Shown: positions 18,856 to 45,146, counted from the first letter of the stretch. The stretch is 64,000 nt of DNA from Acidimicrobiales bacterium (GCA_034521975.1 JAXHLR010000003.1:372001-436000), one strand, 5' to 3'. A program made the numbers and translations. Notes: generated by a model from the sequence alone, not told the origin.

Positions 18856-18900
18856 CAGCGCGCTCGGAGGGAGTCGAACCCCCGACCTTCTGATCCGTAG
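18856..18900. repeat. Left attachment site (attL), 45-bp direct repeat
   Basis: These 45 bases are identical to 45070-45114. They correspond to tRNA-Arg(ACG) from the anticodon loop to the 3' end plus three bases downstream, minus strand. The 5' half of the tRNA is missing here, so this is not a tRNA gene but the distal product of integration into the tRNA 3' part. The segment between the two copies is the genomic island. Confidence 0.9.
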
Positions 18901-23267: not shown

Positions 23268-24590
23268 GGTCGGACTCTCGCCGTGCCCGATAGGAGGCGA
23301 GGCAGGACGTAGTCCCGCAAGCGTACCAACTGCTCGCTCTCTCTCACGGTGGACGTCAGCAGTTCGAAGAGTGGGTCGGCCACTGCTCGATAGGCTGCCA
23401 CAACCGCAGGGTCCGGCACGACTATTGGCAATGGCCGGAAGACCTTCTTGCTGATCTCAGGAAATGTAGTTCCGCTGGAATGCGCCTTGATCATGCCAAT
23501 CGAGGTGGAGGCCCAACTGAACACGTAGGTGGGCGGAAGTGGGCCGTCGCACACCATCGCAATGAAACCTTGATTGACGGCTGTTGGGACGCCCGCGATC
23601 GCCAAGTAGCCGACAGGAGCAGCGAGATGACGGTCAGATCGATCCGGCTGGCAGGGTGCCGGAGCTGATCGCGTCGACGCCCAGGTCTGGTGATGCGCCG
23701 TTCGGTGTCCAGTAGCACTGGATGCTGAAGACGTGACATGTCCTTCGGCGTAGCCCAGCAGTGGTCGCCGCCATCCCAGTAGGCAGGGTTCTTTGTTGCC
23801 GGGGTTCCACCACCCTTCACTTGGACGACGTTGCCGATCGCCTTAACTCGCCACCCTTCAGGGATGGGGCCGATGTCGGACTCGACGAAACTGCCGGGCA
23901 GGGTTTCGAAGACAGGCTGTGGCAGGGGGGAAGGCGGTGGCGCCAGCGGCCTTGGCCCTAATCGGCTCGAAGTCCACGAACCACGACTCGAAGATCTCCC
24001 GCGTTAGCCGATCCAGTGCCAGTGCCGTGCCGCCTGTTCTGGTCGATCTTGTCATCCAACGAGCCGAGGACGGCGGCGATGGCCTGTTGCTCTTCAATCG
24101 GCGGTACGACGATCTTTAGTTCGCGCTGTGCCGTGAGGCTGATGTACGCAGCCATGTCAGTTTCGTTGGAGCGTGCCGTGCCGCTGGTCGCGAAATGCCG
24201 GCGACTGCATGAAGTAGTACAGGTATCGGTGATCAAGAACACTTGGGTCTAGAGCACGCCAGAAGGTTGTCTGAGGTGAACAGACGAATGGTGGTGAGTC
24301 GAGCGGGGCTAGAGCGAGCTTGCCGACGGTTCCCTTGTGGGAGAAGAGTACATCGCCACCGCGCCCGATTCCCTTCCTGAATGCGCTCCCTCGCCGTGTC
24401 GTCGATCCGCTGAGCGGAGTCGAACAGGATTCGCCCACTGTCGATATCAGCAGCTCGGATGAAGGCATAGCTCGCCCACTCCGAACTCATGGCTGCGCGG
24501 CCGGTACTCACCATGATTGCCATCCTCAACGAGCAACGCGTCTGCGGCTTGTAGTTCTGCAACCGTCGACACCGGCCAGGTGCGGGACAT
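23264..24590 (-). pseudogene. hsdS: Type I restriction specificity subunit, multiply frameshifted
   Basis: HsdS recognises the split DNA target for the methylase and nuclease. Recognisable pieces in successive frames are AFIRAADIDSGRILFDSAQR (first target-recognition domain) and GGDVLFSHKGTVGKLALA. After these come the conserved ELKIVVPPIEEQQAIAAVLG with LDDKIDQN, FESWFVDFEPIRAKA, the second domain GGGTPATKNPAYWDGG with WATPKDMS, and the C-terminal VVAAYRAVADPLFELL. The start ATG at 24590 overlaps the hsdM stop as TGATG. Total length fits a 440-residue HsdS with at least four frame changes, so it is either non-functional or contains consensus errors. Confidence 0.8.
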
Positions 24591-26261
24591 CACTCACCGA
24601 CCCGTAGCAACTGCTCCCGCACTGCCGCCATCAATCGCTCACCCTCTCCGAAGCACTCCTCCAGATCAGCCAGTAGGCGTGGGTACTTCTCGGTGAAGGG
24701 CTCACCGTCATCTCCTTGCTCCTCGGCGCCAACGTAGCGGCCGGGGGTGAGCACGAAGCCCTGCTTGCCGATTCCCTCGATCGTCTCGACCTTGCAGAAA
24801 CCAGGGATGTCGCGATAGGTCCATGCGCCATGCCGCGACTCATTCCACCAGTCCGGCGCAGGTTCACCGCGCCATTGGCGGAAGGCGTAGACGATCCGGC
24901 CGAGGTCCGAGTCGGGCTTCGGGTCGCCCATGCCGTCAGCCAGCATGCTCTCGCCGTCGTCGCCGCCGGTGAGAATGCGTAGCGTCCGGGTCTGCATGGT
25001 CCCCAGCTTGCGTGCATCGATGAACAGGGTTTCGCCCGGACGGTCGCGCCCCCCATGCTTGAGGTTGTCTCCTGTCTTGTCGCGGGTGAGGAACCAGAGG
25101 CATGCGGGGATGCCAGTGGTGAGGAAGAGCTGGGCTGGCAGCGCGACGATGCAGTCGACAAGGTCGGCCTCGACGACGCGTCGGCGAATCTCACCCTCTC
25201 CACTGGTACCAGTGGAGAGCGACCCGTTGGCCATGACGAAACCAGCTACCCCCCCTCCGCGTCCGTTGGGCGGTGCAAGGTGGTGGATGAAGTGCTGGAT
25301 CCATGCGTAGTTGGCGTTGCCGACCGGCGGTGTGCCGTAGCGCCAGCGCACGTCGTCGGCCAGGAGTTTGCCCGACCAGTCCGAGACATTGAACGGTGGA
25401 TTGGCGAGTATGTAGTCGGCCTTGAGGTCGGGGTGCAGGTTGCGCAGGAAGCTGTCGGCGGGCTGCGACGCCGAGGTTGGCCTCGATGCCGCGGATGGCG
25501 AGGTTCATGTGCGCCAGCCGCCAGGTGGTGGGGTTCGATTCCTGGCCGAAGATCGAGATGTCGGTTTTCTGTCCGCCGTGGGCCTCCACGAAGCGTTCGG
25601 ACTGCACGAACATGCCGGCCGAACCGCAGCACGGGTCGTACACGCGGCCTTCGTAGGGTTCGAGCATCTCGACCAGCAGCCGTACGATGGAGCGCGGGGT
25701 GAAGAACTCGCCGCCGAGCTTGCCCTCGGCCTGAGCGAACTTGCCTAGGAAGTACTCGTACACGCGGCCCAACATGTCCCGGGCCCTGGCGCGGTCGTCC
25801 TTGAAGCCGACATCGGCGACGAGGTCGATCAGCCCCTTCATCTTCTCGGGCGCGATGCCACGGCGGGCGTAGTCGCGCGGCAGTTTGCCCTTGAGACTCT
25901 GGTTGTCGCGCTCGACGGCGAGGATGGCATCATCGAGCAGAGTGGCGATGTCGGCACGTGCGGCCTGGTCTTGGAGATTCTGCCAGCGCGCCTCGGGCGG
26001 CACCCAGAAGACGCGCTCGGCGGTGTACTCGTCGCGGTTCTCCAGCAGGCTTTCGAGCTGAGGAGCAGGAATCCCGTCGGACGCGAGCTCGTCCTTGAGT
26101 TCGTCGCGCCGGGCCTCGAACGAGTCCGAGATGTATTTCAGGAAGAGCAGGCCGAGGACCACGTGCTTGTACTCAGCGGCATCGATCTGGCCCCGAAGGG
26201 CATCGGCCGCCTTCCAAAGCGTCTCTGCGTGGGCAAGGTCGGGGTGATTCGTTGCGGTCAA
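24590..26261 (-). pseudogene. hsdM: Type I restriction modification methylase subunit, one frameshift
   Basis: HsdM is the N6-adenine methyltransferase. Residues 1-265 read cleanly from the ATG at 26261. They include the N-terminal helical domain ([20 protein letters not shown]), [18 protein letters not shown] and the SAM-binding loop [10 protein letters not shown]. The frame then breaks at about 25460. The NPPF catalytic motif lies in the region around 25390-25400, and the C-terminal 250 residues ([20 protein letters not shown] onward) are in the new frame to the stop at 24590. A single-base change would restore a protein of about 557 residues. The 254 bases upstream to the S8 gene hold no other gene and probably its promoter. 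Confidence 0.85.
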
Positions 26262-26515: not shown

Positions 26516-29051
26516 TTAGATCTCGATGGCGACAGCATCGGTTGGAATCGACAGCGCGGTCGCGATGGGCGAGTAGATGTCGACATCCTCTGCCTTCGTG
26601 CGTAGCGAAACGATGAGGGCGTAGCGGACTGGCAGTTCGATGCGATCCTTGCGCCGGTTGTTCTTCCACCAACCGCCGACGGCATGGACCGCGAGTACGC
26701 CACCGGTCCCGGCGAGCTGGGCTCCGTAGCCCGACCAGATGTCCTGATGCAGGCAGCCTTGGTTGCGTTGGTTCGGTCCGATCATCCAGTTGTCCGAGCC
26801 GCTGGCAGACGATGCGCCGCGCTCCTCCTCGACGGCGGCTTCGCGGTTTACCCGTCGCACGAACTCCGGGGTGGTCTCGTTCGGCGCTCGCAGCTCGAAG
26901 CGCAGCCCATGCGAGGCATAGGCGTAGCGGCGCCGCCAACCGCGCCGGGCGGCAGACGGTTCGATGAAGTATGAGAGCGTCACCCGCAGCTCGACGTCGG
27001 CGGCACCGAGGTCAGCGAGCACATCGGATGGCCACGGCAGCTGGTGCAGCCGGAAGTTCCGCATCCGGTAGTCGTCGCCGGTGAACGGCACAAACTCGTC
27101 TTGAGCCACCATCGTGACGGCGTTTGTTGTCGAACTCAGGACGCTCTGTTCGTCCGGGACGCCCCAGCCGTAGCGTTTGAGTAGCGACCTTCGCTGCTTC
27201 TTGCCGGGTTCGGCGTCGATCTCTGCTCGCATGAGCGGGGTCCACTCGGCGTGGTGCAGTCGAGAAGGCCGCGAATCGTCTCTGGCCAGTAGGACGGGTA
27301 GGTGGCCATCGCAAGCGCAGCGAGACGGGCCGCCTGTGCGGTCGCCGCACTTGCTGGCGTTCGCTGAGCTCAGCGCCGAGCTCATCGCGGCCGGTCCGTC
27401 GTCCGCAGCGAGTGCAGTGGATGGTTGGCATGGAAGTCCCCTGCTCCATCGGTGAGGACGTTTCCGCCTTCCATACAGATGTCAGGTTTGATCGGCCACT
27501 GCGACCCTCCAGCGATCACGCCCGTGCGGCTGTGGGGAGAGATTCCGCCTTCGTCGGCTACCGCGCTCCAACCCGCGTAGGCGGGATCTGACGGCACCTG
27601 CGTCAGCTCCGTGTGGGCACCGACGGTCAGCGCGTTCCAGGACTGGGCGGGATCCTCGATTGGGGACAGGTCGGCGAGTTGCCTGTACTCCAGGTCGAAT
27701 CCGTCTCGGACGTTGCCGGCCGAAACGATGAGCAGCCGCGGCAGTCGGGGTCTGGCGGGCCAAGCAGCTCGATCCCAAAGTCCGACCCGGCCGACGTCGC
27801 TGCCTGCGGCGAGCGTGCGACCGCCGCTGACCATAGCGAGGGCTCTCCCTTGCGGTCTGCGGGGTTCGTGATCGGCATACAGAACACGCGACGCCGTGCG
27901 TGCGCGATCGCCGGACGGGCGACCGCTTCGGCGGTCACGATGCCGTAGGCCAGTGGATCGTGTGGCGGCTTGCTCCTATCGGGCAGGAACTTCACCGACT
28001 CGAGTCGGTGGCGGAGCGTCACGGTGGTGTCGTTGCCGAGGAGTGCGTTGTCGAGTGGTCCGATCAGGGCCAGCCCAGCCATGAGGGTGCCATGGCCGTG
28101 GAGGTCGCCTGCCGGCTCTCCGACGATCGAGTGCATGTCGGACTCGGCGAGCGACGCGTCGAGCAGGACGTGCGTGCGTCTCACACCGGTGTCGAGCAGG
28201 CATACGGCCGGTGCGGTTGCGGCCGCGGGCGTGATCCGTCCGGCGAGGTCGTCGGTCCACTCCATCTGTTCGGCGACGTCGAGATCCTGGATGGTGTCGA
28301 CAAACTGGGGGCGACGTAGCTCCGTGACCGGCACTGCGGTGAACGGCAGGAGTTGTAGCTGGTCCCAACGCGCTTCGAGCCAGATGACGTGGCGCCGGTC
28401 GAACCGCAAGTGATTCGGAGCGATCCGAAGCTGCACTCGGGTGGCGTACTCCTGTGCAAGATCTACGGCATCGGGTTCCGGGCGTAGCCAGATCTCCCAC
28501 CAGTGCAAGCCCGTAGTGGGTGGGTCCCCGTCAGATTGCCAGAGGTCGCGGAGGACAGTTGCGCGGATACGTGCCATGTTGGCGATGAGGGCCCGGTTGC
28601 GTGGCTTCCCACCGGGCGTGTCCTTCTCGCTATCGAGGTAGTCCTCGAAGAGTCGAAGGAACGTCTCCCGGTACTCGTCGCTGATCCAGACAAGGGCTCG
28701 TTCCGGCGAGTCCTCCGTCTCGGGCGAGACGCTGAGCAACAGCCATCTTGGCCGAGGAGCATCGCGGTGGCGGCTCATCTGTTCGAGCGAATCGAGACTG
28801 AGCGGGAAGCCCGGACTCGCCTCGATGGTGACGATGACCCCGAGGGCCTCGAGTTCCTCCAGCGATCCTTCGTCGTGGGCTTGGTCCTGCACGGCCAATG
28901 CCGATTCCACCTCGCGCTGCATCGCCTCGCCATGGGCACGGCGTTCGACATCCCGGATCTTCCGATCGCCTCGACCCTGCCGCGTGAACTCCCGGTCTTC
29001 GACCTGGCCGACGACGAGGAGGTGGGTGAGGTGTTCCCCTGGCTCAGGCAC
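26516..29051 (-). pseudogene. S8 (subtilisin-like) peptidase, frameshifted
   Basis: A subtilase of about 840 codons. Reading from the GTG at 29051, the catalytic aspartate is in AVCLLDTGVRRTHVLL and the histidine in DLHGHGTLMAGLAL. After a frame change near 27830, SPHSRTGVIAGGSQWPIKPD is seen. The serine region ASAATAQAARLAALAMATYP lies in a third frame around 27300-27350, followed by HHAEWTPLMRAEI in a fourth segment down to 26516. The N-terminal 250 residues are a family-specific domain. The start overlaps the AAA ATPase stop by 8 bases, so the two form a pair. At least three frameshifts are present. Confidence 0.75.
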
Positions 29052-30017
29052 TGCTCGCGTTGTTCCGCTCGCTGAGCGTCTCGACCAGCGTCGCCGCCGC
29101 GACTCGGTCGTCGCCTGCGAGGAGACTTCGCTTGGCAGCTGTCTCGGCAGCCTTGACCAGCTCGGCGTGGCTCATCCCGTTGGTCGACTCCCGCACGGAC
29201 GCCCACCGCATTCCCTTGCCCATCGGTCCGAGTCTGGCCTTGAGGACAGTGATGGCCTCCTCCGGCGTGGGTTGTCTGTAGTTGATGACGCATGTCGAAC
29301 CGGCGGAACAACGCTCGATCGAGGATGGCCCGATGGTTCGTGGCGGCAACGACGATGCTCTCCGGACTGGCCTCCTCGAGGAAGACGAGGAACGAGTTGA
29401 GGATCCGGCAGCGCCCTGCGCCGACGTCGTTGCCCGCTCGGTCGCCACCAGGCGCGTCGAACTCGTCGAAGAGATAGACGGCACGTTGGCGTAGCCGCTG
29501 CGTCGAACAGCAGCCGGAGCTTGCTTCCGGTCTCGCCGAGGTACTTGCTCGACGCCGAGTCCAGCCGGATTGTCATGAGCGGCAGGTCGAGTTCGTGGGC
29601 AAGGACCGCGGCGGTCATCGTCTTGCCTGTACCTGGAGGTCCCTCAAGTAGCAGACGGTGCACGGGGTGGAAGCCCTGTTCCATCAGGGTGTGACGCTGA
29701 CGTTGCTCGGCCAGCACCTGGTCGAGTTGTGCCCGGACCTCGGTGGCGACGACCAGATCCTTGAGGCCTACCTCCGGGAAGGACGCCGTCACGAGTTCGG
29801 CAATTTCACCGCGGGGCTGGGCAATAGGGGTTACTACCGTGCCACCGGACTGCCGCCGCGCCCCGTCAACGAGGTCCTTCAGGTCGCCCGCGAGTCGATG
29901 GTGACCCTGTCGCGCCGCTTTGGCAGCGACTTGAAGGGCGACCGCGTAGAAGCTCTCGTCATCGCCAGACGAGTGGCTCTTGACGAGTGCTTTGATGTGA
30001 TCAGCGGTCGCAGCCAC
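29044..30017 (-). pseudogene. AAA ATPase paired with S8 peptidase, frameshifted
   Basis: An AAA-type ATPase of about 325 codons. Walker A is LLEGPPGTGKTMTAAVLAHE, followed by TIRLDSASSKYLGETGSKLR. The Walker B region (DEFDA) and the sensor and arginine-finger region (ALFRRFDMRHQL) are in other frames around 29300-29460. The C-terminal helical lid, ending ETLSERNNASSA, is again in a shifted frame. The GTG at 30017 follows GGAGGC at good spacing. It lies upstream of and overlaps the S8 peptidase, suggesting a chaperone-like ATPase that feeds or controls the protease. Two or more frameshifts interrupt it. Confidence 0.75.
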
Positions 30018-30244: not shown

Positions 30245-30547
30245 TCAGAACAAGGTGGCAGGCTCGCCCGTGCTAGTCCGCTCGCGCAGTCCTGTGGCGC
30301 TGGTGGCCGTGCCTCGAACGGCAGGAGTCGGTGGCTCGGCGGAGTCCGTGGAGAGCGTCGCCCACACGGCGTCGCGATCGACGCCGAGGGACTCGGCGAG
30401 GTAGGCGACGGGGACGATGATGCGGCGGCGGAGGCGGATGCACTTGATGTCGCCGCTGCGGACGAGCTCGTAGGCGGTGGACCGGCCGACGCCGAGGACC
30501 TGGGCGGCCTGCTCGACGGTGATGGTGAGGGGGCGATCGTTGCTCAT
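30245..30547 (-). CDS. Excisionase-type helix-turn-helix protein
   Basis: A 100-residue protein whose first 60 residues are an excisionase/MerR-like DNA-binding domain: TVEQAAQVLGVGRSTAYELV followed by RSGDIKCIRLRRRIIVPVAY. Such proteins direct excision by a tyrosine recombinase or act as small regulators. The island encodes a tyrosine integrase about 10 kb away, so a recombination directionality role is plausible. The ATG at 30547 begins just before the domain. The frame is clean, unlike the neighbouring restriction genes. The 227-base gap to the AAA gene holds nothing recognisable. Confidence 0.75.
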   Translation of the reverse strand: MSNDRPLTITVEQAAQVLGVGRSTAYELVRSGDIKCIRLRRRIIVPVAYLAESLGVDRDAVWATLSTDSAEPPTPAVRGTATSATGLRERTSTGEPATLF

Positions 30548-31189: not shown

Positions 31190-32292
31190 ATGAGCCGTCC
31201 GGGTTATACGGATCGCGCAGCGCTGCGGGCATGGGCGGACAGGCGAGAATCTGAGGGAGAGTTCCCTCGGCTCATTCGGCGATTAATTCTCGAAACGACG
31301 CCAGGACTCGTCGAGCTGGGAATTCCGGCGGGCGACGGTGTTTCAACGGGGGGATGGGATGGCGTCGTCACATCGACCGAAGGATCGGCCTGGGTTCCGA
31401 AGGGGCGTTCTCTGTGGGAGCTGTCCACGGAGAGGAGCGTCGGCGTCAAGGCCGACCGCGACTACGAAAGACGGTCCGCGAATCCGGGCGTCGCCCAGCC
31501 GTCCGAGCACGTGTATGTAGCTGGTTCGCTGCGTACGTGGAAGAAGCAAGGGGACTGGGCTGAGGAAAGGCGTGGTCAGGGCTACTGGAAGGATGTTCGT
31601 GCCTACGGCCTGGACAACATCGAGACGTGGCTAGAGGACGCACCGGCGACGTGGGCGTGGTTCTCAGAGCAGAACGGGTTGAACCCGTATGGTCTCCGAA
31701 CTGTCTCGACCTGGTGGGACACCTGGTCGAGACAGACAGATCCGAAGTTGTCTGCGGAGGTGGTGCTTGCTGGACGGGAGGCAACGGCGACGGCAATCGC
31801 CGACCGTCTCGGTGGTGGAGGCTTCGTAACAACAATCGGTGGACTATCTCGCGACGAAGTCTGCGCATTCCTTGCCGGCTTTGCAGTTGCCCAGGAGCGA
31901 TCTGGAAACGGCGACATGATCGCCCGAACTGTCTTCGTTGACGACATAACTGCATGGCGAAGGTCGCTGGACGGGACGCAACCTCTCGTGCTCGTTCCGC
32001 TTGACCCGCGGTTCGCCACCGAGGTTCCACCGGACTCACCGCACCATGTACTCGTACCGGTTGATCGCCCAGACGTCGCCGACATGAGTCTTGCACTCCT
32101 CGACGCTTCAGGCGGTCGAGACGCGCTGAAGCGCCTTGGTGTCGAAGACGATCAGGAGGCGGATGAGTACGGTCGCCTCGCCCGTCGGAGTCTGACCGCA
32201 CTTCGCCGTCGGCTTGGAGTTGGGCACGGCGCTGAGTGATCCGGAGTGGTCTCGTCACCCAGTGTCGCGAGCGACACGGGCCTGCCTCCTGA
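31190..32292 (+). pseudogene. Very large island gene, piece 1 of 3 (N-terminal)
   Basis: This is the start of a gene of about 1,280 codons that continues at 33447 and 39464. The N-terminal 120 residues contain GGWDGVV, then VPKGRSLWELSTERSVGVKA and DYERR. This D/E/K spacing is reminiscent of, but not proof for, a PD-(D/E)XK nuclease-like domain. Residues 180-330 alternate strands and helices (AEVVLAGREATATAIADRLG onward), ending SLTALRRRLGV. The frame is lost about 70 bases before the insertion sequence; one extra G near 32225 explains it, since the next frame reads TALSDPEWSRHPVSRATRAC and leads exactly into piece 2. I do not recognise a named family. Confidence 0.65.
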
Positions 32293-33446
32293 GTGGTCCG
32301 TCGTTGAAATAGCTCGGATGGGTAGTGTGTGACGATGCCGGTCGTGATTGCAGAGCCGTTGTCGATGTCGGATGAGCAGCGCGAGGTGTTGGAGCGGATG
32401 GCTCGGTCGTCGTCGTTGCCGCATCGCAAGGTCGTGCAAGCGAGGGCGTTGCTGATGGCGGCCGAGGGTGTAGCGACCAATGAGGTGGCTCGGCAGTGTG
32501 GGACCACGGCGGATTCGGTGCGGTCATGGCGGCGCCGGTTCGCTGAGCATGGTGTTGAGGGTGTGGGGCGGATCGCTCCGGGTCGGGGGCGCAAGTCGTG
32601 GTTGCCGGAGGGCACGGTCGAAGCGGTGGTGCATGACACGTTGCATGCCAAGCCCGATGACGGGTCGACGCACTGGACGACCAGGTCGATGGCAGCACGT
32701 CATGGGATCGGCAAGGACTCGGTTGCAGCGGATCTGGCGGGACGACAAGCTCAAGCCGTGGAAGGTCGACACGTTCAAGATCTCCAACGATCCTCGGTTC
32801 GAGGAGAAACTCGTCGACGTCGTCGGCCTCTACCTGAACCCGCCTGAGCGGGCCGTGGTGTTCAGCTTCGATGAGAAGACCCAGTGCCAGGCGTTGGACC
32901 GAACCCAGCCGTCGTTGCCGATGAAGCGTGGTCGGGGCGAGACGATGACCCATGACTACAAGCGCAACGGGACCACCGATCTGTTCGCCGCGTTGAACGT
33001 CGGCACCGGCGAGGTGTTGACCGACACGCGCAAGTCGCACAAGGCAACCGATGTGTTGGCGTTCTTCAAGTGGATCGATCTTCACGTCGAACCGGACCTG
33101 GAGATCCACGTCGTGTTGGACAACCTGTCCGCGCACAAGGCTCCACCGGTCGCGAAGTGGCTGGCGCACCCAGAAGCGGGCCCGGTGGCACCTGCACTTC
33201 ACTCCCACCTCCAGTTCGTGGCTGAACCTGGTCGAGGGCTGGTTCAAGCTGTTGACCGAACGGCGGCTACGCCGCGGCACGTTCACCAGCGTCGACGAGC
33301 TCATCGAAGCGATCGAGACCTGGGTCGAGCACTGGAACGACGACCCCAAACCGTTCATCTGGAAGAAGCCCGCCGAGGAGATCCTTGCCAAGGTCCGCCG
33401 AGGCCGAGCCGCTCTGACCGCCCAGACCAAATCCGCGACGGACCAC
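32293..33446 (+). mobile_element. IS630-type element, copy 1
   Basis: A 1,154-bp element with perfect 11-bp terminal inverted repeats GTGGTCCGTCG / CGACGGACCAC. It interrupts the large island gene at CTC-CTA-GCG. The right flank keeps TAG (33447-33449); the left flank shows GA where TA is expected, after one extra base. Two further near-identical copies lie at 34959-36120 and 42039-43204. Confidence 0.88.
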
Positions 33447-33449
33447 TAG
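32335..33449 (+). pseudogene. IS630 transposase, copy 1, frameshifted
   Basis: The DDE transposase of the element, 370 residues when repaired. The N-terminal helix-turn-helix (NEVARQCGTTADSVRSWRRR) is in the first frame. The catalytic residues are in FSFDEKTQ, HVVLDNLSAHK and SWLNLVEGW. Relative to the other copies, this one has an extra A near 32725 and an extra G near 33172, which break the frame twice. The stop TAG is not inside the element but is formed by the target TA plus the next G. Confidence 0.85.
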
Positions 33450-34958
33450 CGGGTGCCTGGGCGGACGGACGGGACGGAGATCAAGAGGCGCTCGCGGAGC
33501 TTGCTGGAACCGGCTACGAGCAGTTTGTCGAAGACGCACAGGCGCTCAGCGGAACAGCAGACCCGCTCGTTTCCCGTCTAAACGGGGCATGGCACCTCAC
33601 CGATGCGCTCGACGCCTGGGTGCAGCTCAGCAGTGCCGTGAGCCCGCAGGACTTGCAACGCCTCACTACCGTGGTGGCTGCCGTTCTGGGAGAGGTCGAT
33701 CCAGCGCTGGAGCTACCGCAGAATGAGCGTTGGTGGCGCGCAGCCTTCGACGGTAAGCAGAGGAACTGCTCAGCTCAGTCTCCGCCGGGGCCTCGCAAGC
33801 ACGCTCGCACTCCTCGGAGAGTTCGGCGGAACAGTCCGGGCTGCGGGAGGTGGACCAGGTACGGATCTTGCTATTGGCGTAGTGCGGAAGTTGCTGGCCG
33901 ATGCGAACAGCGATGAAAGTGGGCAACGCTGGGCGTCTATCGCTGAACTCCTTCCTCTCCTGGCGGAGGCCGCTCCCGACGCATTCCTCGAAGGCGTACA
34001 GACGGGGCTTTCTGGCGATGAACCCTTGCTCGCAGAGATCTTCACTGACGATGGTGATCCACTCTTCGGCAGCGGCTTCCCCCCACACCGGCCTGCTGTG
34101 GGCTTTGGAGACAGCGGCTTGGTCATCGGCGCACCTGGGCCTCGCTATTGAGCTGCTAGCCCAGCTCACGGAGATCGACCCTGTTGGCCGGGCTGAGCAA
34201 CCGACCAGCCAACAGCTTGTCGTCGATCTCCTGCCCCTGGCATCCAGAGAACACGGCGACGGATGACAGCCGGCTACGGATCGCATCGACGCGAATCCGC
34301 CGTCGACATCCGAACGTTGCGTGGCCGTGGATGCTGGATGCCGCGAACCGTGCAGCGCATATGGTATCCATTCGCCGACGCACGGGCCGGGGTATGCGAG
34401 ACTGGAAACCCTCGAAGATCAGCGTGTTCCCCAGTGCGTACTGGTCATTCGTGGCGTCAGTAATCGAGAGATGCGTGGGGGATGCAAGGAGATCCGCGTC
34501 ACGCTGGCTGGAACTCATCGACAAGATCGAAGACGTGCTACCCGGTGACAGATCAAAGGTGCTAGCTGAACTCAAGATGAAGACAGTCGACGACGATGTG
34601 TTCGATGAACCTGAGCGCATTCAGCTCTGGGCAAAGCTTCGGTCTGTTGCCGGAAAGCACCGTTCGTTCTCCGCATGCCGATTGGGCGTTGTCCGCAGAA
34701 GAGCTTGTACCTGTCGAGGAGTTGGTTGGTCAGCTTGCCCCGACCAGCTCGCGAATCAGAGGATCGTTGGCTGTTCGAGGACAACCATCCGGACCTCGAC
34801 GGTAGGCGAGGTGGACAGACGACCGCGAGCGGTACAAGGAGGTCATTCGCCTCAACAGGCTCGAAGCGGTCGGGCGCATCCTCGATGAGGAAGGGATTGC
34901 AGGCGTTCAGCAGCTGGCGGACAGTCTGAAGCAGCCATGGAGCGTTGGGATCGCCCTA
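33447..34958 (+). pseudogene. Very large island gene, piece 2 of 3 (middle)
   Basis: The middle part of the split gene. It begins LAGAWADGRDGDQEALAELA directly after the element, in phase with piece 1 once the target duplication is removed. Recognisable runs in successive frames are SLRRGLASTLALLGEFG, then KLLADANSDESGQRWASIAE, then HTGLLWALETAAWS with AIELLAQLTEIDP. Further on come ANSLSSI followed by PWHPENTATDDSRLR, and finally LKQPWSVGIAL at the next insertion point. The helical repeat-like character and length suggest a scaffold or sensor region. Several single-base frameshifts are present. Confidence 0.65.
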
Positions 34959-36120
34959 GTGGTCCGTCGTTGAAATAGCTCGGATGGGTAGTGTGTGACG
35001 ATGCCGGTCGTGATTGCAGAGCCCGTTGTCGATGTCGGATGAGCAGCAGCGAGGTGTTGGAGCGGATGGCTCGGTCGTCGTCGTCTGCCGCATCGCAAGG
35101 TCGTGCAAGCGAGGGCGTTGCTGATGGCGGCCGAGGGTGTAGCGACCAATGAGGTGGCTCGGCAGTGTGGGACCACGGCGGATTCGGTGCGGTCATGGCG
35201 GCGCCGGTTCGCTGAGCATGGTGTTGAGGGTGTGGGGCGGATCGCTCCGGGTCGGGGCGCAAGTCGTGGTTGCCGGAGGGCACGGTCGAAGCGGTGGTGC
35301 ATGACACGTTGCATGCCAAGCCCGATGACGGGTCGACGCACTGGACGACCAGGTCGATGGCAGCACGTCATGGGATCGGCAAGGACTCGGTTGCGCGGAT
35401 CTGGCGGGACCACAAGCTCAAGCCGTGGAAGGTCGACACGTTCAAGATCTCCAACGATCCTCGGTTCGAGGAGAAACTCGTCGACGTCGTCGGCCTCTAC
35501 CTGAACCCGCCTGAGCGGGCCGTGGTGTTCAGCTTCGATGGAGAAGACCCAGTGCCAGGCGTTGCGACCGAACCCAGCCGTCGTTGCCGATGAAGCGTGG
35601 TCGGGGCGAGAGCGATGACCCATGACTACAAGCGCAACGGGACCACCGATCTGTTCGCCGCGCTTGAACGTCGGCACCGGCGAGGTGTTGACCGACACGC
35701 GCAGTCGCACAAGGCAACCGATGTGTTGCGCGTTCTTCAAGTGAGATCGATCTTCACGTCGAACCGGACCTGGAGATCCACGTCGTGTTGGACAACCTGT
35801 CCGCGCACAAGGCTCCACCGGTCGCGAAGTGGCTGGCGCACCCAAAGCGGGCCCGGTGGCACCTGCACTTCACTCCCACCTCCAGTTCGTGGCTGAACCT
35901 GGTCGAGGGCTGGTTCAAGCTGTTGACCGAACGGCGGCTACGCCGCGGCACGTTCACCAGCGTCGACGAGCTTCATCGAAGCGATCGAGACCTGGGTCGA
36001 GCACTGGAACGACGACCCCAAACCGTTCATCTGGAAGAAGCCCGCCGAGGAGATCCTTGCCAAGGTCCGGCCGAGGCCGAGCGCGCTCTGACCGCCCAGA
36101 CCAAATCCGCGACGGACCAC
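34959..36120 (+). mobile_element. IS630-type element, copy 2
   Basis: A 1,162-bp copy with the same terminal repeats, inserted in CTAG with TA duplicated (34957-34958 and 36121-36122). Its interrupted target reads GCC-CTA-GCC in the large island gene. An IS1182-type element directly follows in the CTAG at its right end. Confidence 0.88.
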
Positions 36121-36123
36121 TAG
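35001..36123 (+). pseudogene. IS630 transposase, copy 2, many small indels
   Basis: Same transposase as copy 1, but 10 bases longer than the repaired 1,113-base gene. Compared with the other copies it has about a dozen scattered indels, mostly single-base insertions, such as extra bases near 35022, 35084, 35541, 35662 and 35971. The catalytic regions VLDNLSAHK and SWLNLVEGWF are still recognisable. It cannot encode a functional protein as written. The pattern looks more like uncorrected read errors than ordinary decay. Confidence 0.85.
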
Positions 36124-36164
36124 GAGTCTGCTGAGCAATCGGGGGCGAGGGGGCTCGATTCGCG

Positions 36165-37733
36165 ATGTTGGTTCGGATCGGGTGGACTGTGGGGATGCAG
36201 GGATCGTCTCGCTTGGATCGTGAGCTGCTGGATGCAGCGGCGCTGTGTTCGCATCTACTCGGTGAGGGGTCGGTGCACGCGTTCTTGGCTGAGCACCGTC
36301 ACCGGTTGTTCCCCGATGAGATGTTCGTGGACCTGTTCCCGACGAAGCGGGGTCGGCCGTCGGTGCCAGCGGATGTGGTTGCCACGGTGATGGTGCTGCA
36401 GGCGTTGGAGGGCCTGTCAGATCGAGAGGCGGTCCGCCAGCTCGAGACGAACATCGCGTGGAAGGCGGCGACAGGGCTGGCGTTGACCGACGAAGCGTTC
36501 CACTCGACGGTGCTGGTGTTGTGGCGCAACAAGTTGAACGCGTCGGACCGACCGAAGCGGATCTTTGAAGCGGTCGCCACCTTGATGGACGAGTCCAGGG
36601 TTCTCGCTGGCAAGACCCGCCGGGCGTTGGACTCAACGGTGCTGGATGACGCGGTGGCCCGCCAGGACACGATCACGATGATCGCTACCCAGATCCGTCG
36701 GGTCCGCAAGCTGGTTCCCGAACTCGGGTCGGTGTGGGTCCGCGAGCACAACTTGGAGCCGGGCCGGCCGCCGTGTGACTGGGACGACCCCGCCGATCGC
36801 GACCGCCTGGTGTCTGAGCTGGTCGATGATGCCAACGAGTTGGTGTGGGCCGCCGAGGACCTCGTCGAAGACGGTCTCGAGCTCACCGAGAAGCAGGCTG
36901 ATGCGGTGGCGTTGTTGGCCCTGGTCGCGGGCCAAGACGTCGAACCCGGCGACCGGCCCGGTCAGTGGCGCATCACCCGGGGCACCGCCACCGACCGGGT
37001 CATCTCGACGGTCGATCCCGAGTCCCGCCACGCGCACAAGACCCGGTCGTCCTACCGCGACGGCTACAAGGCCCACGTCGCCGCCGAGCCCGACACCGGG
37101 CTCATCACCGCGTGTGATCTGGGCCCCGGCAACGCCGCCGACACCGACGCCGCCCCCGATCTGGTTGCGGATGAACCAGCAGGCACCGAGGTCCTCGGCG
37201 ACTCCGCCTACGGATCGGGCGAGTTCCGCGACCACCTCAAGACCCACGACATGACCGCGGTGATCAAGCCCCCACCGCTACGCCCCGCCACCGTGGGCGG
37301 CTACACCCTCGACGACTTCACCATCGACCTCGACGCCAGAACCGTGACCTGTCCCGAAGACATCACCGTCACCATCACCACCTCCGGTTCGGCCCGATTC
37401 GGCACCCACTGCACCACCTGCCCGGTCCGGGGCCGCTGCACCACCGCCACACGCGGGCGGGTCATCAAACTGCACCCCCATCATCGGCAGCTCGCTGCCG
37501 CCCGAGCCCAGGCCGGCACCGACGACTTCGACACCGTCTACCGGCAACACCGGCCGATGATCGAACGCAGCATTGCCTGGCTGGTCAAGAACAACCACCG
37601 ACGGCTCCGCTACCGAGGGATCCAACGCAACCAGCTCGGCTGGTCACTGCGATGCGCGGCGGTGAACCTCAAACGACTCCTCGCGCTCGGCCTCACCCAC
37701 AACAGCGGCTGGACCATCGCCCCAACGACCTGA
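36165..37733 (+). CDS. IS1182-family transposase, copy A
   Basis: An intact 522-residue transposase. The N-terminal domain reads RGRPSVPADVVATVMVLQAL, the DDE catalytic region starts with RRALDSTVLDDAVARQDT, and the core SRHAHKTRSSYRDGYKAHVA and EVLGDSAYGSGE follow. A cysteine cluster CTTCPVRGRC and the closing RPMIERSIAWLVKNNHRRLR precede the end. It cuts and moves the element that carries it. The likely start may be the ATG at 36195 (MQGSSRLDRELL), which better fits the family; the frame opens at 36165. This copy is clean, whereas copy B is frameshifted near its C-terminus. Confidence 0.9.
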   Translation: MLVRIGWTVGMQGSSRLDRELLDAAALCSHLLGEGSVHAFLAEHRHRLFPDEMFVDLFPTKRGRPSVPADVVATVMVLQALEGLSDREAVRQLETNIAWKAATGLALTDEAFHSTVLVLWRNKLNASDRPKRIFEAVATLMDESRVLAGKTRRALDSTVLDDAVARQDTITMIATQIRRVRKLVPELGSVWVREHNLEPGRPPCDWDDPADRDRLVSELVDDANELVWAAEDLVEDGLELTEKQADAVALLALVAGQDVEPGDRPGQWRITRGTATDRVISTVDPESRHAHKTRSSYRDGYKAHVAAEPDTGLITACDLGPGNAADTDAAPDLVADEPAGTEVLGDSAYGSGEFRDHLKTHDMTAVIKPPPLRPATVGGYTLDDFTIDLDARTVTCPEDITVTITTSGSARFGTHCTTCPVRGRCTTATRGRVIKLHPHHRQLAAARAQAGTDDFDTVYRQHRPMIERSIAWLVKNNHRRLRYRGIQRNQLGWSLRCAAVNLKRLLALGLTHNSGWTIAPTT

Positions 37734-37795
37734 GCGCCGGTCCTGAGCCGCTCCAGGCTCCCAACGGAACGTGTCAAGGGGGATGAGACAACTTC

Positions 37796-38806
37796 TTACG
37801 CGGATTGGATGAGTGCTTCTCGGTTGGGGTCGTTGATCCACGCTGCCTCGGGAAGCTTGGGTGGTGTGGGTGGGCGGTGGCGGAATCGGGCGGGGTTGGT
37901 GTTGTAGGCGGCGGTGAGGGTGGCGGCTCGGGCGGCGCGGATCTCGGTGGCGGTGCCGTAGTGGACCGATGCGGGGGTGTGCAGGCCGATGCCGGCGTGG
38001 CGGTGGGTGTGGTTGTAGTGATCGAAGAACGCGGCGCAGAACGAGCGGGCATCGGCGATGGATCCGAACCGGGTGGGGAACGCGGGGCAGTACTTGAGGG
38101 TCTTGAACTGGGCTTCGCTGTAGGGGTTGTCGTTGGAGACCGATGGGCGGCTGTGGGAGCGGGTGACGCCGAGGTCGACGAGGAGCTGGGCGACGGGTTT
38201 GGAGGTCATCGAGGTGCCGCGGTCGGCATGCAGGGTGAGCTGGTTGCGGTCGATGCCTTGTTGGTCGAGGGCGTCGGCGATGAACGCTTCGGCGAGTTCG
38301 CCGGTCTCAGCGGCGGCGACACACCAGCCGACGACGTAGCGGGAGTAGATGTCGATGATCACGAACAGCTCGTAGTAGACGCCGCGTTCGGGGCCGGGGA
38401 GCTTGGTGATATCCCATGACCACACCTCATTCGGTGCGGTCGCGATGAGCTCGGGGCGCTTGCGGGCCGGGTGGGTGCGTTGGCGGCGACGTTCGCGGTT
38501 CTCCCCGGCGGCGGCGAGGAGCCGGTACATGGTGCGGATCGAACACAGGTAGATGCCGTCGTCGAGGAGCTGGGCCCACACCTGAGCCGGGGCGAGGTCC
38601 CGGTACTTGGGCGAGCGAAGCACCGACAACACGTGCTGTTGTTCGGGCTCGGACAGCTTGTTCGGCGGCGCCGGCCGCGGTGGCGCAGGCCCATGGACCG
38701 GTGCCCGACGGCGACGCAGCACCGTGGAACGGTTGACGCCCAACAGCTCACACGCCCGCTTGGTCGACGTGGCCTCCTCCAGGGCGGGCAGATGCTCGGC
38801 GGTCAC
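37796..38806 (-). CDS. IS3-family transposase OrfB (DDE integrase domain)
   Basis: A 336-residue retroviral-integrase-like transposase. The HTH_21 region precedes the catalytic core. The three acidic residues are in WSWDITKLPG, LHADRGTSMTS and NPYSEAQFKTLK. The C-terminal region has FFDHYNHTHRHAGIGLHTP, typical of IS3 OrfB. It is normally made as a fusion with OrfA by -1 frameshifting. Reading back from the GTG at 38806 the frame stays open to the slippery site at 38864, which supports this. The sequence is clean. Confidence 0.92.
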   Translation of the reverse strand: MTAEHLPALEEATSTKRACELLGVNRSTVLRRRRAPVHGPAPPRPAPPNKLSEPEQQHVLSVLRSPKYRDLAPAQVWAQLLDDGIYLCSIRTMYRLLAAAGENRERRRQRTHPARKRPELIATAPNEVWSWDITKLPGPERGVYYELFVIIDIYSRYVVGWCVAAAETGELAEAFIADALDQQGIDRNQLTLHADRGTSMTSKPVAQLLVDLGVTRSHSRPSVSNDNPYSEAQFKTLKYCPAFPTRFGSIADARSFCAAFFDHYNHTHRHAGIGLHTPASVHYGTATEIRAARAATLTAAYNTNPARFRHRPPTPPKLPEAAWINDPNREALIQSA

Positions 38807-39185
38807 GGCTTCGACCTGGTCTCGGTGTCCGCGCTCTCGGAGAGCTGCTCCAGAGCGCGTGCACTTTTCCCGTGATCTCCAACGCGGTCTGGGTCTTGGC
38901 CAGCTCCGAACTCAACCGTTGGTTCTGGCGACGCAACCTGTCGAGCTCGATCTGCTCCGCTGAGCGGCGCTTCTTCGACTTGGCCGCCAGACCCGCCCGG
39001 GCGCCGGCCTCGGCCTGCTTGCGCCACTCCGAGATGTGCGAGCTGTACAGCCCCTCGCGGCGCAGGATCGCTCCGCGCTCCTCCGAGCCCTTCGGCCACG
39101 AGTCGTACTCGGCGAGGATCTCCGCCTTGTACCCGGCGGTGAACCTCCGCCGCGTCGGACGTCGCCGCAGGATCGATGTCGTCAT
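38748..39185 (-). CDS. IS3-family OrfA (helix-turn-helix)
   Basis: A small basic protein. The helix-turn-helix segment runs from FTAGYKAEILAEYDSW to LYSSHISEWRKQAEAGARAG, followed by a leucine-rich coiled coil (EQIELDRLRRQNQRLSSELA). It supplies the DNA-binding half of the OrfAB transposase. Its meaningful part ends at ITGK, where the slippery sequence lies; the remaining codons to 38748 read through the start of OrfB in another frame. Confidence 0.85.
   Translation of the reverse strand: MTTSILRRRPTRRRFTAGYKAEILAEYDSWPKGSEERGAILRREGLYSSHISEWRKQAEAGARAGLAAKSKKRRSAEQIELDRLRRQNQRLSSELAKTQTALEITGKVHALWSSSPRARTPRPGRSRDRRASARPGGGHVDQAGV
38831..38871 (-). promoter_or_regulatory. Programmed -1 frameshift signal of the IS3 element
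   Basis: On the minus strand the slippery run GGGAAAAG (38871-38864) is followed after five bases by a hairpin with arms GCGCTCT and AGAGCGC (38858-38831). Slipping back one base at AAAAG joins the OrfA frame to the frame of OrfB with no stop between them, giving a single OrfAB protein. Confidence 0.7.
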
Positions 39186-39463
39186 CGTCAGTCACACCCC
39201 CAGTGTGGGCGCGGCCGTTCAACGATGCAGTGGTCATGGTCATGGTTCTCGAGTTCCTGTCTCGCCCCGTCGGGTCAGAAGATCGGGTACCGCAGGTGTC
39301 TCAACTCACCCTGACAGACAGGGCAACGCACCCTCGCCGAGCGACCCGCCAGCTCATCGCCCCCCACCACACGGCTCAACCAACCGATCCAGCTCGACAC
39401 CGCGCCCGAACCCAGCGTCGCTCCCGCCAGCACACCTGCCAAGCGCCGTTGCTCAGCAGACTC

Positions 39464-40706
39464 CTAGCCGACAAACACCCAACGTTTGACGACCAGCTTG
39501 TGACGTCACTGGGGTTCCGCCAGAGGCCAGCGATCGCTCGCTGCCCCTGGTCATATCTCGCTCAGCGTTTCGCCAACGAGGGATGGGACTGGCTTGGGAG
39601 GGCTTCGATTGCAGCGCCCGATCTCTCCCCGGCGCGGCGCGGACTCCTACTCCTCGCATCTAGCGACTTCCCGAAGGCATGGGAGCGGGCGGACGATTTC
39701 GGAGGGGGCCGCGACCGCCACAGCCTTCTGGCAGGAGTTCCGTCCCCGTACGGGTCTGCGGCGACTTCGAGTATGTCCAGCAGGCGGCACGACGGCTCAT
39801 GGATGTTGGACGCCACGCTGTCGCCTTGGATTTGATCAACATCTACCGCGGCGACGAGGAGAGCGCCGAGAGGTATGCACTGCTGGTCGCCGAGGGTCTT
39901 GAGGTGTTGCTCAGAGAGAGCAACCTAACGAAAACGAAATTGCCGTCCTCGGAAACCACGGATTCAAGTCGCTGTTCGAACTGCTCGAGAATCAGCGGGA
40001 GGGTCGTGGGAGTTCTGAGCGAGTTGCCGAGTTGGAGTGGGCGCATAGTCCGCCTGCACTGGGGCTTCGAGCCGACGATTCCGTCGCTCGCCGAGGTCGA
40101 GCTTGCCCAGTCTCCAGGACCTGTTCGTCGAGGTGATTAGCACGGTGTATCGCTCACATCGTGACGATTACGACGAAGAGAGCGATGGCGAAGGTGACAG
40201 CGCCAACGAGGGCGCCGAGTGATCCAGCTATTGCACAGGAGCACGCGTAACAGGCTGTTGGCGAACTGGAACCATCCTCCCGGCATGAGTTCAGACGGAA
40301 TCGACGAAGCCGGACTGAGCGAGTGGGTCGACGAAGTCATCACGAAGCTGAACGGAGGCCGGTCGGCTTGACGCCGGACTCTTACACATCGGGCACATTC
40401 TGACGGCCTTCCCAGCCCGGCGACGACGGGGTTCAGCCACCGAAGGAGGTGCGCGATCTAATCGAGAGACTGGCGAACAACAAGTTGGAGGAAGGCTACC
40501 TCACCCGAATTCTCAACAGCCGAGGTGTCACGTCTCGTGGCCTTGAAGACGGCGGTGCAAAGGAGCAGGTACTCGCGAACGGGTTCCGTACTGATGCTGG
40601 CGCCCTCGCTGATGGAATACCCGCGGACGGCTTCGATCCTGCGACAGATTGCTGACTCGGCGGTGCGAGCGAGAGGCGCATTGGAACGAATCCAACGGCG
40701 CAGAGA
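39464..40706 (+). pseudogene. Very large island gene, piece 3 of 3 (C-terminal)
   Basis: Directly after the IS1182 element the sequence reads ADKHPTFDDQLVTSLGF. Removing both insertion sequences and one TA/CTAG copy joins it in frame to WSVGIAL of piece 2. Later runs in several frames are RGLLLLASSDFPKAWERADD, FEYVQQAARRLMDVGRHAVA, LDLINIYRGDEESAERYALL, and GFKSLFELLENQREGRGSSE. After these come LANWNHPPG and, near the end, RDLIERLANNKLEEGYLTRI with LNSRGVTSRG. The exact stop near 40.70 kb is blurred by frameshifts. The whole reads as one protein of roughly 1,280 residues, of unknown function. Confidence 0.6.
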
Positions 40707-40881
40707 GCTTCCCGAAGAGGTCTCCGCCGATGCCGCCACGAGCTGGCACGCGCGCGAGCCCGCTGACCGCTCTGTTGGGGGACATGGAGCCGACGTCGCC
40801 CGTATCGGGTGTCGAAGCTCGTCGCACTGTCTGCCCTCGATGCGTCCTTGAAGGGCAGGGCCCGGCGTGGGTGCAGATATC

Positions 40882-42016
40882 TCAGGAGGCGCCTGCATTC
40901 GGGGAGAGCAGGGCGCCGAGGTAGGTGGCGGCGACTCGGTCGGTGGCGGGGAGGGCGTGGGTGTAGATGTTGAGCGTCGTGGCGGTGTCGCGGTGGCCGA
41001 GGCGGGAGCTGATCGTGGCGATCGGGACGCCGCCGTCGCCGAGCACGGTGGCGACGAAGTGGCGCAGGTCGTGCAGGCGCACCCGGTCGAGGCCGAGCTG
41101 GGCCCGGAGCCGGCCGAACCGGTTGGTGCACACGTCCGGGCCGCCACGGCCGACCCTCGACGTCGGCGAACACGTAGGCGTCGTCGGCCAGGCGCACGCC
41201 GAGCGCCAGCGCCCGCTCGAGCATCCGCCGACGGTGCTCCCGCAGAACGAGCACCGTCGCCTCGTCGAGCGACACCCGCCGCGACGCATGGGTCTTGGTC
41301 GACTTCTCGTACGGCACGCCGTTGGCCATGGCGATCGCCCGGCGGATCACCAGCTCCTCCCCGTCGAGGTCGATGTCCGACCAGCGCAGCCCGCAGCCCT
41401 CACCCCGTCGGCACCCGGTGGCGGCGAGCACCCACAGGTACGCACCGAACTCGGGATCGTCCTCCCGAGCAGCCGAGAGCAACAGCAGCACCTCGTCGAC
41501 CGTCGGCGGCGTCACCGTCTTCCGGGTCTGCGGCGGCGGCGTCGCATCCACCGCCGGCGACCGGGCGATCAGTCCCCACTTGCGGGCCTGCTCGAGCGAC
41601 TGGCGCACCACGGTGTGACAGATCCGCACCGTCCGGGCCGACAGCCCCGAGCCACGCAGCTCGGCGTAGAGCGTGTCGAGCTCGATCGGCCGCAGCGACG
41701 CCAGCTTCCGCTCGCCGAGCGCCGGCCGCAGGTACTTGCGGGCCACCCACTCATACGACGTCACCGTCGACGGCTCCACCGCCAGGCGCTTCACCGTCAG
41801 CCACCGGTCGAGCAGCTCGCCGAAGGTCAGCGGCGCCGCGGCGGCGTGGCGACCCTCGTCGACCTCGACGAGCAACCGGGACAGCTCCCGCTCGGCCTCG
41901 TGGCGCGTCCCGGTGATCGTCCGCTGGGAGTACCGCTTCCTGCCATCAGCGGAGCGCCCCAGGTACGCCTTGATCCGCCAGCTCTTCGGTCCTCGTTGCT
42001 GGATGTGTCCTCGCAT
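40882..42016 (-). pseudogene. Tyrosine recombinase (integrase) of the island, one frameshift
   Basis: A phage-type integrase of about 378 residues. The N-terminal arm-binding domain begins MRGHIQQRGPKSWRIKAYLG and is followed by a SAM-like core-binding domain (LTFGELLDRWLTVKRLAVEP). The catalytic arginine is in LAATGCRRGEGCGLRWSDID. After a one-base frame change near 41140 the second half reads RVRLHDLRHFVATVLG, then RLGHRDTATTLNIYTHAL with the nucleophilic tyrosine. If the shift is real the enzyme is dead and the island is fixed. Its start is 22 bases from IS630 copy 3, which together with IS1182 copy B separates it from the tRNA. Confidence 0.88.
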
Positions 42017-42038
42017 GTCGGCCTCCTCGGCACTACTA

Positions 42039-43204
42039 GTGGTCCGTCGTTGAAATAGCTCGGATGGGTAGTGTGTGACGATGCCGGTCGTGATTGCAGA
42101 GCCGTTGTCGATGTCGGATGAGCAGCGCGAGGTGTTGGAGCGGATGGCTCGGTCGTCGTCGTTGCCGCATCGCAAGGTCGTGCAAGCGAGGGCGTTGCTG
42201 ATGGCGGCCGAGGGTGTAGCGACCGATGAGGTGGCTGGGCAGTGTGGGACCACGGCGGATTCGGTGCGGTCACGGCGGCGCCGGTTCGCTGAGCATGGTG
42301 TTGAGGGTGTGGGGCGGATCGCTCCGGGGTCGGGGGCGCAAGTCGTGGTTGCCGGAGGGCACGGTCGAAGCGGTGGTGCATGACACGTTGCATGCCAAGC
42401 CCGATGACGGGTCGACGCACTGGACGACCAGGTCGATGGGCAGCACGTCATGGGATCGGCAAGGACTCGGTTGCGCGGATCTGGCGGGAGCCACGAGCTC
42501 AAGCCGTGGAAGGTCGAGACGTTCAAGATCTCCAACGATCCTCGGTTCGAGGAGAAACTCGTCGACGTCGTCGGCCTCTACCTGAACCCGCCTCGAGCGG
42601 GCCGTGGTGTTCAGCTTCGATGAGAAGACCCAGTGCCAGGCGTTGGACCGAACCCAGCCGTCGTTGCCGATGAAGCGTGGGCCGGGGCGAGACGACGACC
42701 CATGACTACAAGCGCAACGGGACCACCGATCTGTTCGCCGCGTCGAACGTCGGCACCGGGCGAGGTGTTGACCGACACGCGCAAGTCGCACAGGGCAACC
42801 GACGCGTCGGCGTTCTTCAAGTGGATCGATCTTCACGTCGAACCGGACCTGGAGATCCACGTCGTGTTGGACAACCTGTCCGGCGGCACAAGGCTCCACC
42901 GGTCGCGAAAGTGGCTGGCGCACCCAAAGGGGGCCCGGCGGCACCTGCACTTCACTCCCACCTCCAGTTCGTGGCTGAACCTGGTCGAGGGCTGGGTTCA
43001 AGCTGTTGACCGAACGGCGGCTACGCCCGCCGGCGCGTTCACCAGCGTCGACGTGGTCCCGTCGAAGCGATCGAGACCTGGGTCGAGCACTGGAACGACG
43101 ACCCCGAACCGTTCATCTGGAAGAAGCCCGCCGAGGAGATCCTTGCCAAGGTCCGCCGAGGCCGAGCCGCTCTGACCGCCCAGACCAAATCCGCGACGGA
43201 CCAC
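42039..43204 (+). mobile_element. IS630-type element, copy 3
   Basis: A 1,166-bp copy with the same terminal repeats, in CTAG with TA at 42037-42038 and 43205-43206. It lies between the integrase start and the tRNA. IS1182 copy B follows directly in the CTAG at its right end. Confidence 0.88.
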
Positions 43205-43207
43205 TAG
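42081..43207 (+). pseudogene. IS630 transposase, copy 3, many small indels
   Basis: Third copy of the 370-residue transposase gene, 14 bases longer than the repaired length. Scattered single-base insertions and substitutions break the frame repeatedly, for example in the segment 42440-42500 and around 42880-42910. Recognisable pieces include SMSDEQREVLERMARSSSLP at the N-terminus and SWLNLVEGW near the end. The stop again is the TAG formed with the target site. Confidence 0.85.
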
Positions 43208-44986: not shown

Positions 44987-45035
44987 CTAGGCCGGCGGAG
45001 TGCCAACGGAGTGCCAAGAAGGCTGAGAAAAGCAA

Positions 45036-45069: not shown

Positions 45070-45114
45070 CAGCGCGCTCGGAGGGAGTCGAACCCCCGAC
45101 CTTCTGATCCGTAG
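45070..45114. repeat. Right attachment site (attR) within tRNA-Arg, 45-bp direct repeat
   Basis: Identical to 18856-18900. The repeat runs from three bases beyond the tRNA 3' end to the anticodon loop, a common crossover position for tyrosine integrases. Beyond 45114 the two copies diverge at once. Confidence 0.9.
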
Positions 45115-45146
45115 TCAGATGCTCTATCCAGCTGAGCTACGAGCGC
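45073..45146 (-). tRNA. tRNA-Arg(ACG)
   Basis: A 74-base cloverleaf: acceptor GCGCTCG/CGAGCGC, D-arm TAGCTCAGCTGGATAGAGC, anticodon stem TCTGA/TCAGA around the loop CTACGGA (anticodon ACG), and T-arm GGGGGTTCGACTCCC. CCA is not encoded. It reads codon CGT and, after deamination to inosine, CGC and CGA. Its 3' half is the integration site of the island and is fully restored here. Confidence 0.95.

Follow-up and report, generated by a model that had tools for sequence, protein, structure and literature searches.

A 64,000-nucleotide stretch of an Acidimicrobiales bacterium genome (GCA_034521975.1 JAXHLR010000003.1:372001-436000; hereafter the window) raises the question of what is encoded on its plus strand from position 31190 to ~40700, where coding sequence is interrupted by two blocks of insertion sequences (IS). 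This region is one gene, which the two IS blocks split into three pieces, and we favour, with moderate confidence, the reading that it is an IS-inactivated member of an unnamed family of single-protein modular immune nucleases, Avs-like and probably nucleotide-independent.

The gene was tested through its intact relatives, the broken copy being left unmended and intact homologues being used to fold the core. With a 1,267-amino-acid (aa) intact homologue (L011:4302-8105, minus strand) as query, encoded in a different genome of the order, tblastn gives three matches in the window, ordered and on a single strand, with E-values down to 1e-112: residues 1-341 fall on 31190-32215, residues ~341-864 on ~32229-34958, spanning the first IS630-like copy, and residues 864-1235 on 39464-40622, a colinearity that far exceeds any chance explanation. 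A preliminary description of the locus had proposed, from in-frame joints on removal of the IS blocks, a single gene of about 1,280 codons, and had asked whether intact homologues colinear with all three pieces exist; they do, and their length is as proposed (median 1,284 aa, range 1244-1497, for 78 full-length homologues). Both joints also lie within conserved motifs: CTC-CTA-GCG (L-L-A) in LLAGxW, which reads LLAGSW in the homologue and LL-AGAW across the joint in the window, and ATC-GCC-CTA-GCC-GAC (I-A-L-A-D) in VGIALAD, where the window has VGIAL-ADKHPTF. No homologue ends at either piece boundary, the outcome named beforehand as contrary to a single gene, and the nine relatives that begin near residue 350-364 mark a true domain boundary, at which front ends are swapped, not an IS joint as such. 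The closest relative of the first frame (31190-32236, 349 aa) is 55% identical to it and lies inside an intact frame of 1,274 aa, that of the 1,267-aa query homologue; no second copy of the gene was found in its own genome.

What did not hold is the reading of the unaltered pieces as one protein: they are colinear with the intact homologue throughout but are not open frames, having ~19 frameshifts in all. Piece 1 (31190..32288, plus strand) covers residues 1 to ~362, with the PD-(D/E)XK domain, a nucleotide-binding-domain (NBD)-like domain and the start of the winged helix, and has one frameshift near 32220 and a TGA at 32237-32239, upstream of the first IS630-like copy. Piece 2 (33445..34957, plus) covers residues ~364-863, with the remaining winged helix, the helical superhelix and a DPGGRxxNRP motif, and piece 3 (39464..40700, plus; stop position approximate) residues 864 to ~1260, with the C-terminal helical part and an RGVTSR..GGxQER motif. 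In a frameshift-tolerant alignment to the homologue, pieces 1, 2 and 3 have 1, 8 and 10 frameshifts, 16 of the 19 being +1, are 54%, 47% and 44% identical to it, and retain no in-frame stops. This suggests that the frameshifts are uncorrected sequencing errors, a likelier cause than decay, because under neutral decay substitutions would outnumber indels, and the IS630-like copies show the opposite: a single substitution separates copies 1 and 2, against ~18 one-base indels that are mostly insertions, and a consensus of three copies is an intact transposase-like open reading frame (ORF). Genuine decay, by which the gene would have been a pseudogene already before or after the IS insertions, draws on the adjoining hsdM, subtilase, AAA and integrase genes, which are likewise frame-broken; given the indel pattern and the absence of residual stops we regard it as unlikely, and it would leave the family identity unaffected. 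Frame breaks cluster at 22000-45000 of the surrounding island (hsdM, subtilase, AAA, integrase, the three-piece gene and IS630 copies 2 and 3), whereas the flanking genes and the IS1182- and IS3-like ORFs are intact, which we read as a local assembly-quality problem. Whatever the status of the frameshifts, the IS insertions by themselves kill the gene here and make a full protein impossible.

The statement that the gene belongs to no named family stands. Pfam, NCBIfam and PADLOC models (those for Avs included) returned no family for window piece 1 and the intact homologues beyond helix-turn-helix (HTH) fusions, a PDB sequence search gave no significant match, and we found no paper naming the family or its accessions. 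There is, however, an unnamed cluster, phrog_18693 (PHROGs v4, 'unknown function', 1258 positions), which spans the whole protein (residues 11-1259 of 1267 in homologue L016, E 3.4e-153) and matches piece 1 (contig 403214-403948, E 3e-23) and the C-terminal piece (E 1e-10) in the window; it represents the same family and is itself unannotated, with no function, fold or modularity attached. An alignment-based scan of genome contigs yielded at least 142 relatives in actinobacteria, proteobacteria, Bacteroidota, Planctomycetota, Chloroflexota and archaeal metagenome-assembled genomes, a first scan with piece 1 alone having given zero matches. Relatives also occur on 22 plasmids and 11 viral contigs, and the spread within the order is patchy (5 of 148 genomes, own included, with piece 1 as query). 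Judged from these matches, the family is unnamed, widespread and horizontally spread. Two sets of candidates were set aside: phrog_18693 matches in three actinobacterial genomes (E 1e-4 to 1e-5) are UvrD helicases, for which reason a weak Corynebacterium glutamicum control ring was left unused, and Gifsy GiPD474 is an unrelated ParA-like ATPase. In Hymenobacter artigasi (L068:9926-15016), a truncated, N-terminal-only copy of 404 aa lies directly upstream of a full-length member.

The D/E/K-like N-terminal segment noted in the preliminary description corresponds to a confidently predicted fold. An AlphaFold2 model of window residues 1-342, built with 63 relatives, has a pLDDT (predicted local distance difference test) of 95.9, and its residues 1-160 (31190..31669, plus strand) present the alpha-beta core of the PD-(D/E)XK superfamily with conserved Asp, Glu and Lys: D57, E77 and R95 are found in all 64 sequences and K87 in 63. 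VIA-align places this part nearest to FokI (Z 8.5, rmsd 4.1, 139 aligned), MspJI (8.4, 3.7, 138), LlaBIII (8.2, 3.5, 126), Card1 (8.2, 3.3, 117) and Avs4 (7.8, 3.7, 139). From model and conservation together we confidently assign residues 1-160 to a putative PD-(D/E)XK nuclease domain. It is followed by an NBD-like domain of AAA+/STAND fold (31742..32220, plus strand; residues ~185-343): residues 166-342 match the NBDs of ClpC1 (Z 8.5, rmsd 3.5, 159 aligned), the NRC2 resistosome (7.9, 4.1, 151) and a ZAR1-type resistosome (7.1), and in Foldseek the two-domain N-terminal model has Avs4 (8dgf) as its top match (E 2.6e-4, probability 0.97). The core of L016 (residues 180-1267) was predicted at a pLDDT of 90.4; after the lid, its DSSP assignment runs helix-strand-helix-helix-hairpin, as in a winged helix, a domain assigned here from this secondary-structure order alone, and then continues as an all-helical superhelix of ~800 residues, in agreement with the long helical middle and end parts described earlier. 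Against PDB, this helical core finds generic HEAT/ARM repeat proteins only (Z <=9.8), which we rejected as relatives.

The family thus shares with Avs4 (AVAST type 4; PDB 8dgf) an N-terminal PD-(D/E)XK-type nuclease, a central STAND/AAA+ fold and a long helical C-terminus, and differs from it in the missing Walker A, in a distinct helical part and in a core that accepts other front ends. Among the features of STAND proteins, the AAA+-type NBD fold, the lid, the winged helix and the Arg of the hhGR motif (R196 in the window protein; 63 of 64 sequences, the final E of hhGRExE not being conserved) are present, and Walker A (GxxxxGK[ST]) is found in none of the 64 relatives examined, so that by sequence alone the functional ATPase of Avs proteins is not recognized. 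The retained fold and hhGR motif could also be taken to indicate an ordinary STAND/Avs receptor with an unusual nucleotide site, still binding ATP through non-canonical residues. This we consider quite improbable, as Walker A is missing throughout, the NBD is wholly absent from relatives that bear other front ends on the retained core, and in Avs5 single Walker A changes abolish immunity (PMC12931631). That the P-loop is missing, and in some relatives the entire NBD, instead argues for a switch that would be independent of ATP.

The exchangeability of the N-terminal part is seen in nine relatives from viral contigs and genomes that match only from residue ~350 onward. In some relatives the front end is a ~280-aa domain with a D...QxK pattern, DUF4297-like by eye and without a Pfam hit, in another type it is HD-CE (PF24391, E 2e-9), and one core (L103) has no front end at all; the relatives with these other front ends lack the whole NBD and keep the core. 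In Shewanella baltica BA175 a nuclease front end sits on a core that shares 42% identity with the core of the DUF4297-like type, an arrangement that implies front-end exchange on related cores. In P2-like prophages of E. coli, a RefSeq 'GapS6a family protein' directly precedes a 930-aa protein that is 27% identical to the L016 core over 910 columns (E 1e-85), and in L103 and a Buttiauxella plasmid a gene of ~107 aa lies directly upstream of the core gene, an HSGxGxN-type tail and head being common to the two proteins; these matching motifs may dock the GapS6a-type protein and the core onto each other. Such pairs were seen at L151:9001-12119 (E. coli DLI.5a), L123:11570-14664 and L103:7546-10679. 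GAPS6, which consists of GapS6a and a partner, occurs on mobile islands of Vibrio and acts in phage defence. The E. coli and Buttiauxella GapS6a-type genes adjoin genes for the family core, whereas GapS6a relatives at a greater distance (Vibrio, Pantoea) have partners that are unrelated to it; the partners in Vibrio, Pantoea and Pseudoalteromonas were rejected as core relatives, that of Pantoea not being homologous except for a short HSGxGxN-type start. Unlike GAPS6, the window gene has a nuclease front end built in, and no ORF resembling GapS6a was noticed in the window before 31190.

These data bear on whether the protein might be a restriction enzyme that works alone, similar to type IV or IIS enzymes, whose winged helix and helical body would bind directly to DNA and whose nuclease would cleave invading DNA with no abortive sensor step, some members adding an HTH. 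The restriction nucleases FokI and MspJI are indeed the top structural matches of residues 1-160, ~20 of 80 relatives with the restriction-endonuclease-type front end have an N-terminal extension of ~70-130 aa, which in every one checked is an HTH (HTH_17/MerR- or XRE-type; one also matches the PADLOC restriction Control_protein, E 6e-13), and the HEAT-like matches of the helical part include the DNA-binding condensin and FANCI. However, the family shares only the nuclease fold with these type IIS/IV enzymes, its recognition parts differing and its catalytic Lys lying in the following helix; no partner methylase is consistently present, the top overall match is Avs4, and a core carrying unrelated front ends (HD-CE, a separate GapS6a protein) fits better with a sensor/effector plan. 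A restriction enzyme of this kind therefore appears unlikely to us. It is conceivable, and we propose it tentatively at somewhat less than even confidence, that the family constitutes a hitherto undescribed class of modular immune receptors in prokaryotes, in which a conserved winged-helix and helical core would serve at least four different effectors and signal without a nucleotide switch, the commonest form having a pseudo-NBD. The layout itself is a variant of the Avs/STAND-like plan, not a demonstrated new principle.

The preference for an immune nuclease also draws on gene neighbourhoods, whose content the preliminary description had left to be examined and which proved to be defence-rich. 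At E-values of 1e-15 or lower, 99 proteins encoded beside relatives together hit 94 PADLOC models (a count of models, many of them redundant, and not of neighbour proteins), among them HmaB, GajB, AbiEii, a reverse-transcriptase-associated helicase and type II methylases, whereas 94 control proteins, drawn from 18 arbitrarily chosen regions in three of the order's genomes, hit none. On a Rhizobium CB3171 plasmid (L124:3368-10565), AbiEi/AbiEii and a Gabija-like UvrD helicase/AAA ATPase adjoin the family member; in annotated records, a relative on a Shewanella conjugative element adjoins Abi and SieB genes, and others occupy E. coli prophage margins, prophage moron sites and cargo sites of integrative and conjugative elements. 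One of the prophage relatives is the 1,180-aa protein WP_044867624.1. From architecture and neighbourhood together we infer that the family probably has an immune role. Several points weigh against this interpretation. The controls come from three Acidimicrobiia-order genomes only and the neighbours from mixed actinobacteria and others; Z-scores of ~8 are middling according to the warning of VIA-align itself; K87 lies in the helix after the Asp/Glu strands, not two residues past the Glu, an atypical placement; and conservation is highest in the C-terminal 140 residues (mean pairwise identity 0.40, against 0.24-0.25 in the helical parts before them), an unusual trait in a fast-evolving sensor and one that points to a constant partner or assembly surface, as far as conservation can indicate it.

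IS630-like copy 1 (32289..33449, plus strand) lies at a CTAG/TA target within the LL-AG codons. The second block contains, as originally described, IS630-like copy 2 (34956..36123, plus; 98.5% identical to copy 1, with differences nearly all one-base indels) and an IS1182-like element (36120..39467, plus; intact 522-aa ORF), and additionally an IS3-like orfA/orfB (37796-39185, minus) nested near the right end of the latter. The window has two instances, at 34956-39467 and 42036-44995, of an IS630-like element with an IS1182-like one directly behind it at the same CTAG junction, the second IS1182-like copy being in opposite orientation and 88.5% identical. The gene sits in a 26.2-kb integrated element between 45-bp direct repeats of the 3' part of tRNA-Arg(acg), the left at 18856..18900 (minus) and the right at 45070..45114 (minus), inside the tRNA gene (45072-45146). 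As far as its annotated content indicates, this element is a mobile defence-type island, as had been proposed, because it carries a tyrosine integrase inside a longer ORF (40499..42535, minus; Pfam Phage_int_SAM_3, Phage_integrase), an HTH_17 excisionase-like gene (30245..30547, minus), a type I restriction HsdR-like gene (19057..21555, minus; T1RH-like_C 5e-113, SWI2_SNF2 2e-72), a frame-broken HsdM-like N6 methylase (24590..26261, minus; N6_Mtase, HsdM_N) and a frame-broken subtilase (S8) and AAA ATPase pair (27382..30017, minus; Peptidase_S8, AAA). The latter pair, beside the type I restriction system, is possibly a separate defence pair.

For the favoured immune nuclease, we propose that the long helical C-terminal part would sense an infection cue, and that the winged helix and the NBD-like domain, having lost its P-loop, would act as a hinge or oligomerisation platform and not as a switch driven by ATP. 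Once the cue is sensed, the N-terminal PD-(D/E)XK domains would assemble and cut DNA (phage, host or both), halting phage spread in a manner resembling Avs4, probably without ATP binding. In the STAND immune proteins known so far, ATP binding is taken to be the required switch; if our reading is true, the same layout without a P-loop, or without an NBD, would mean that a helical sensor can activate an effector with no ATP-binding switch. It would also help to interpret over 140 loci that currently carry the annotation 'hypothetical protein', including those in E. coli prophages and those adjoining a GapS6a gene.

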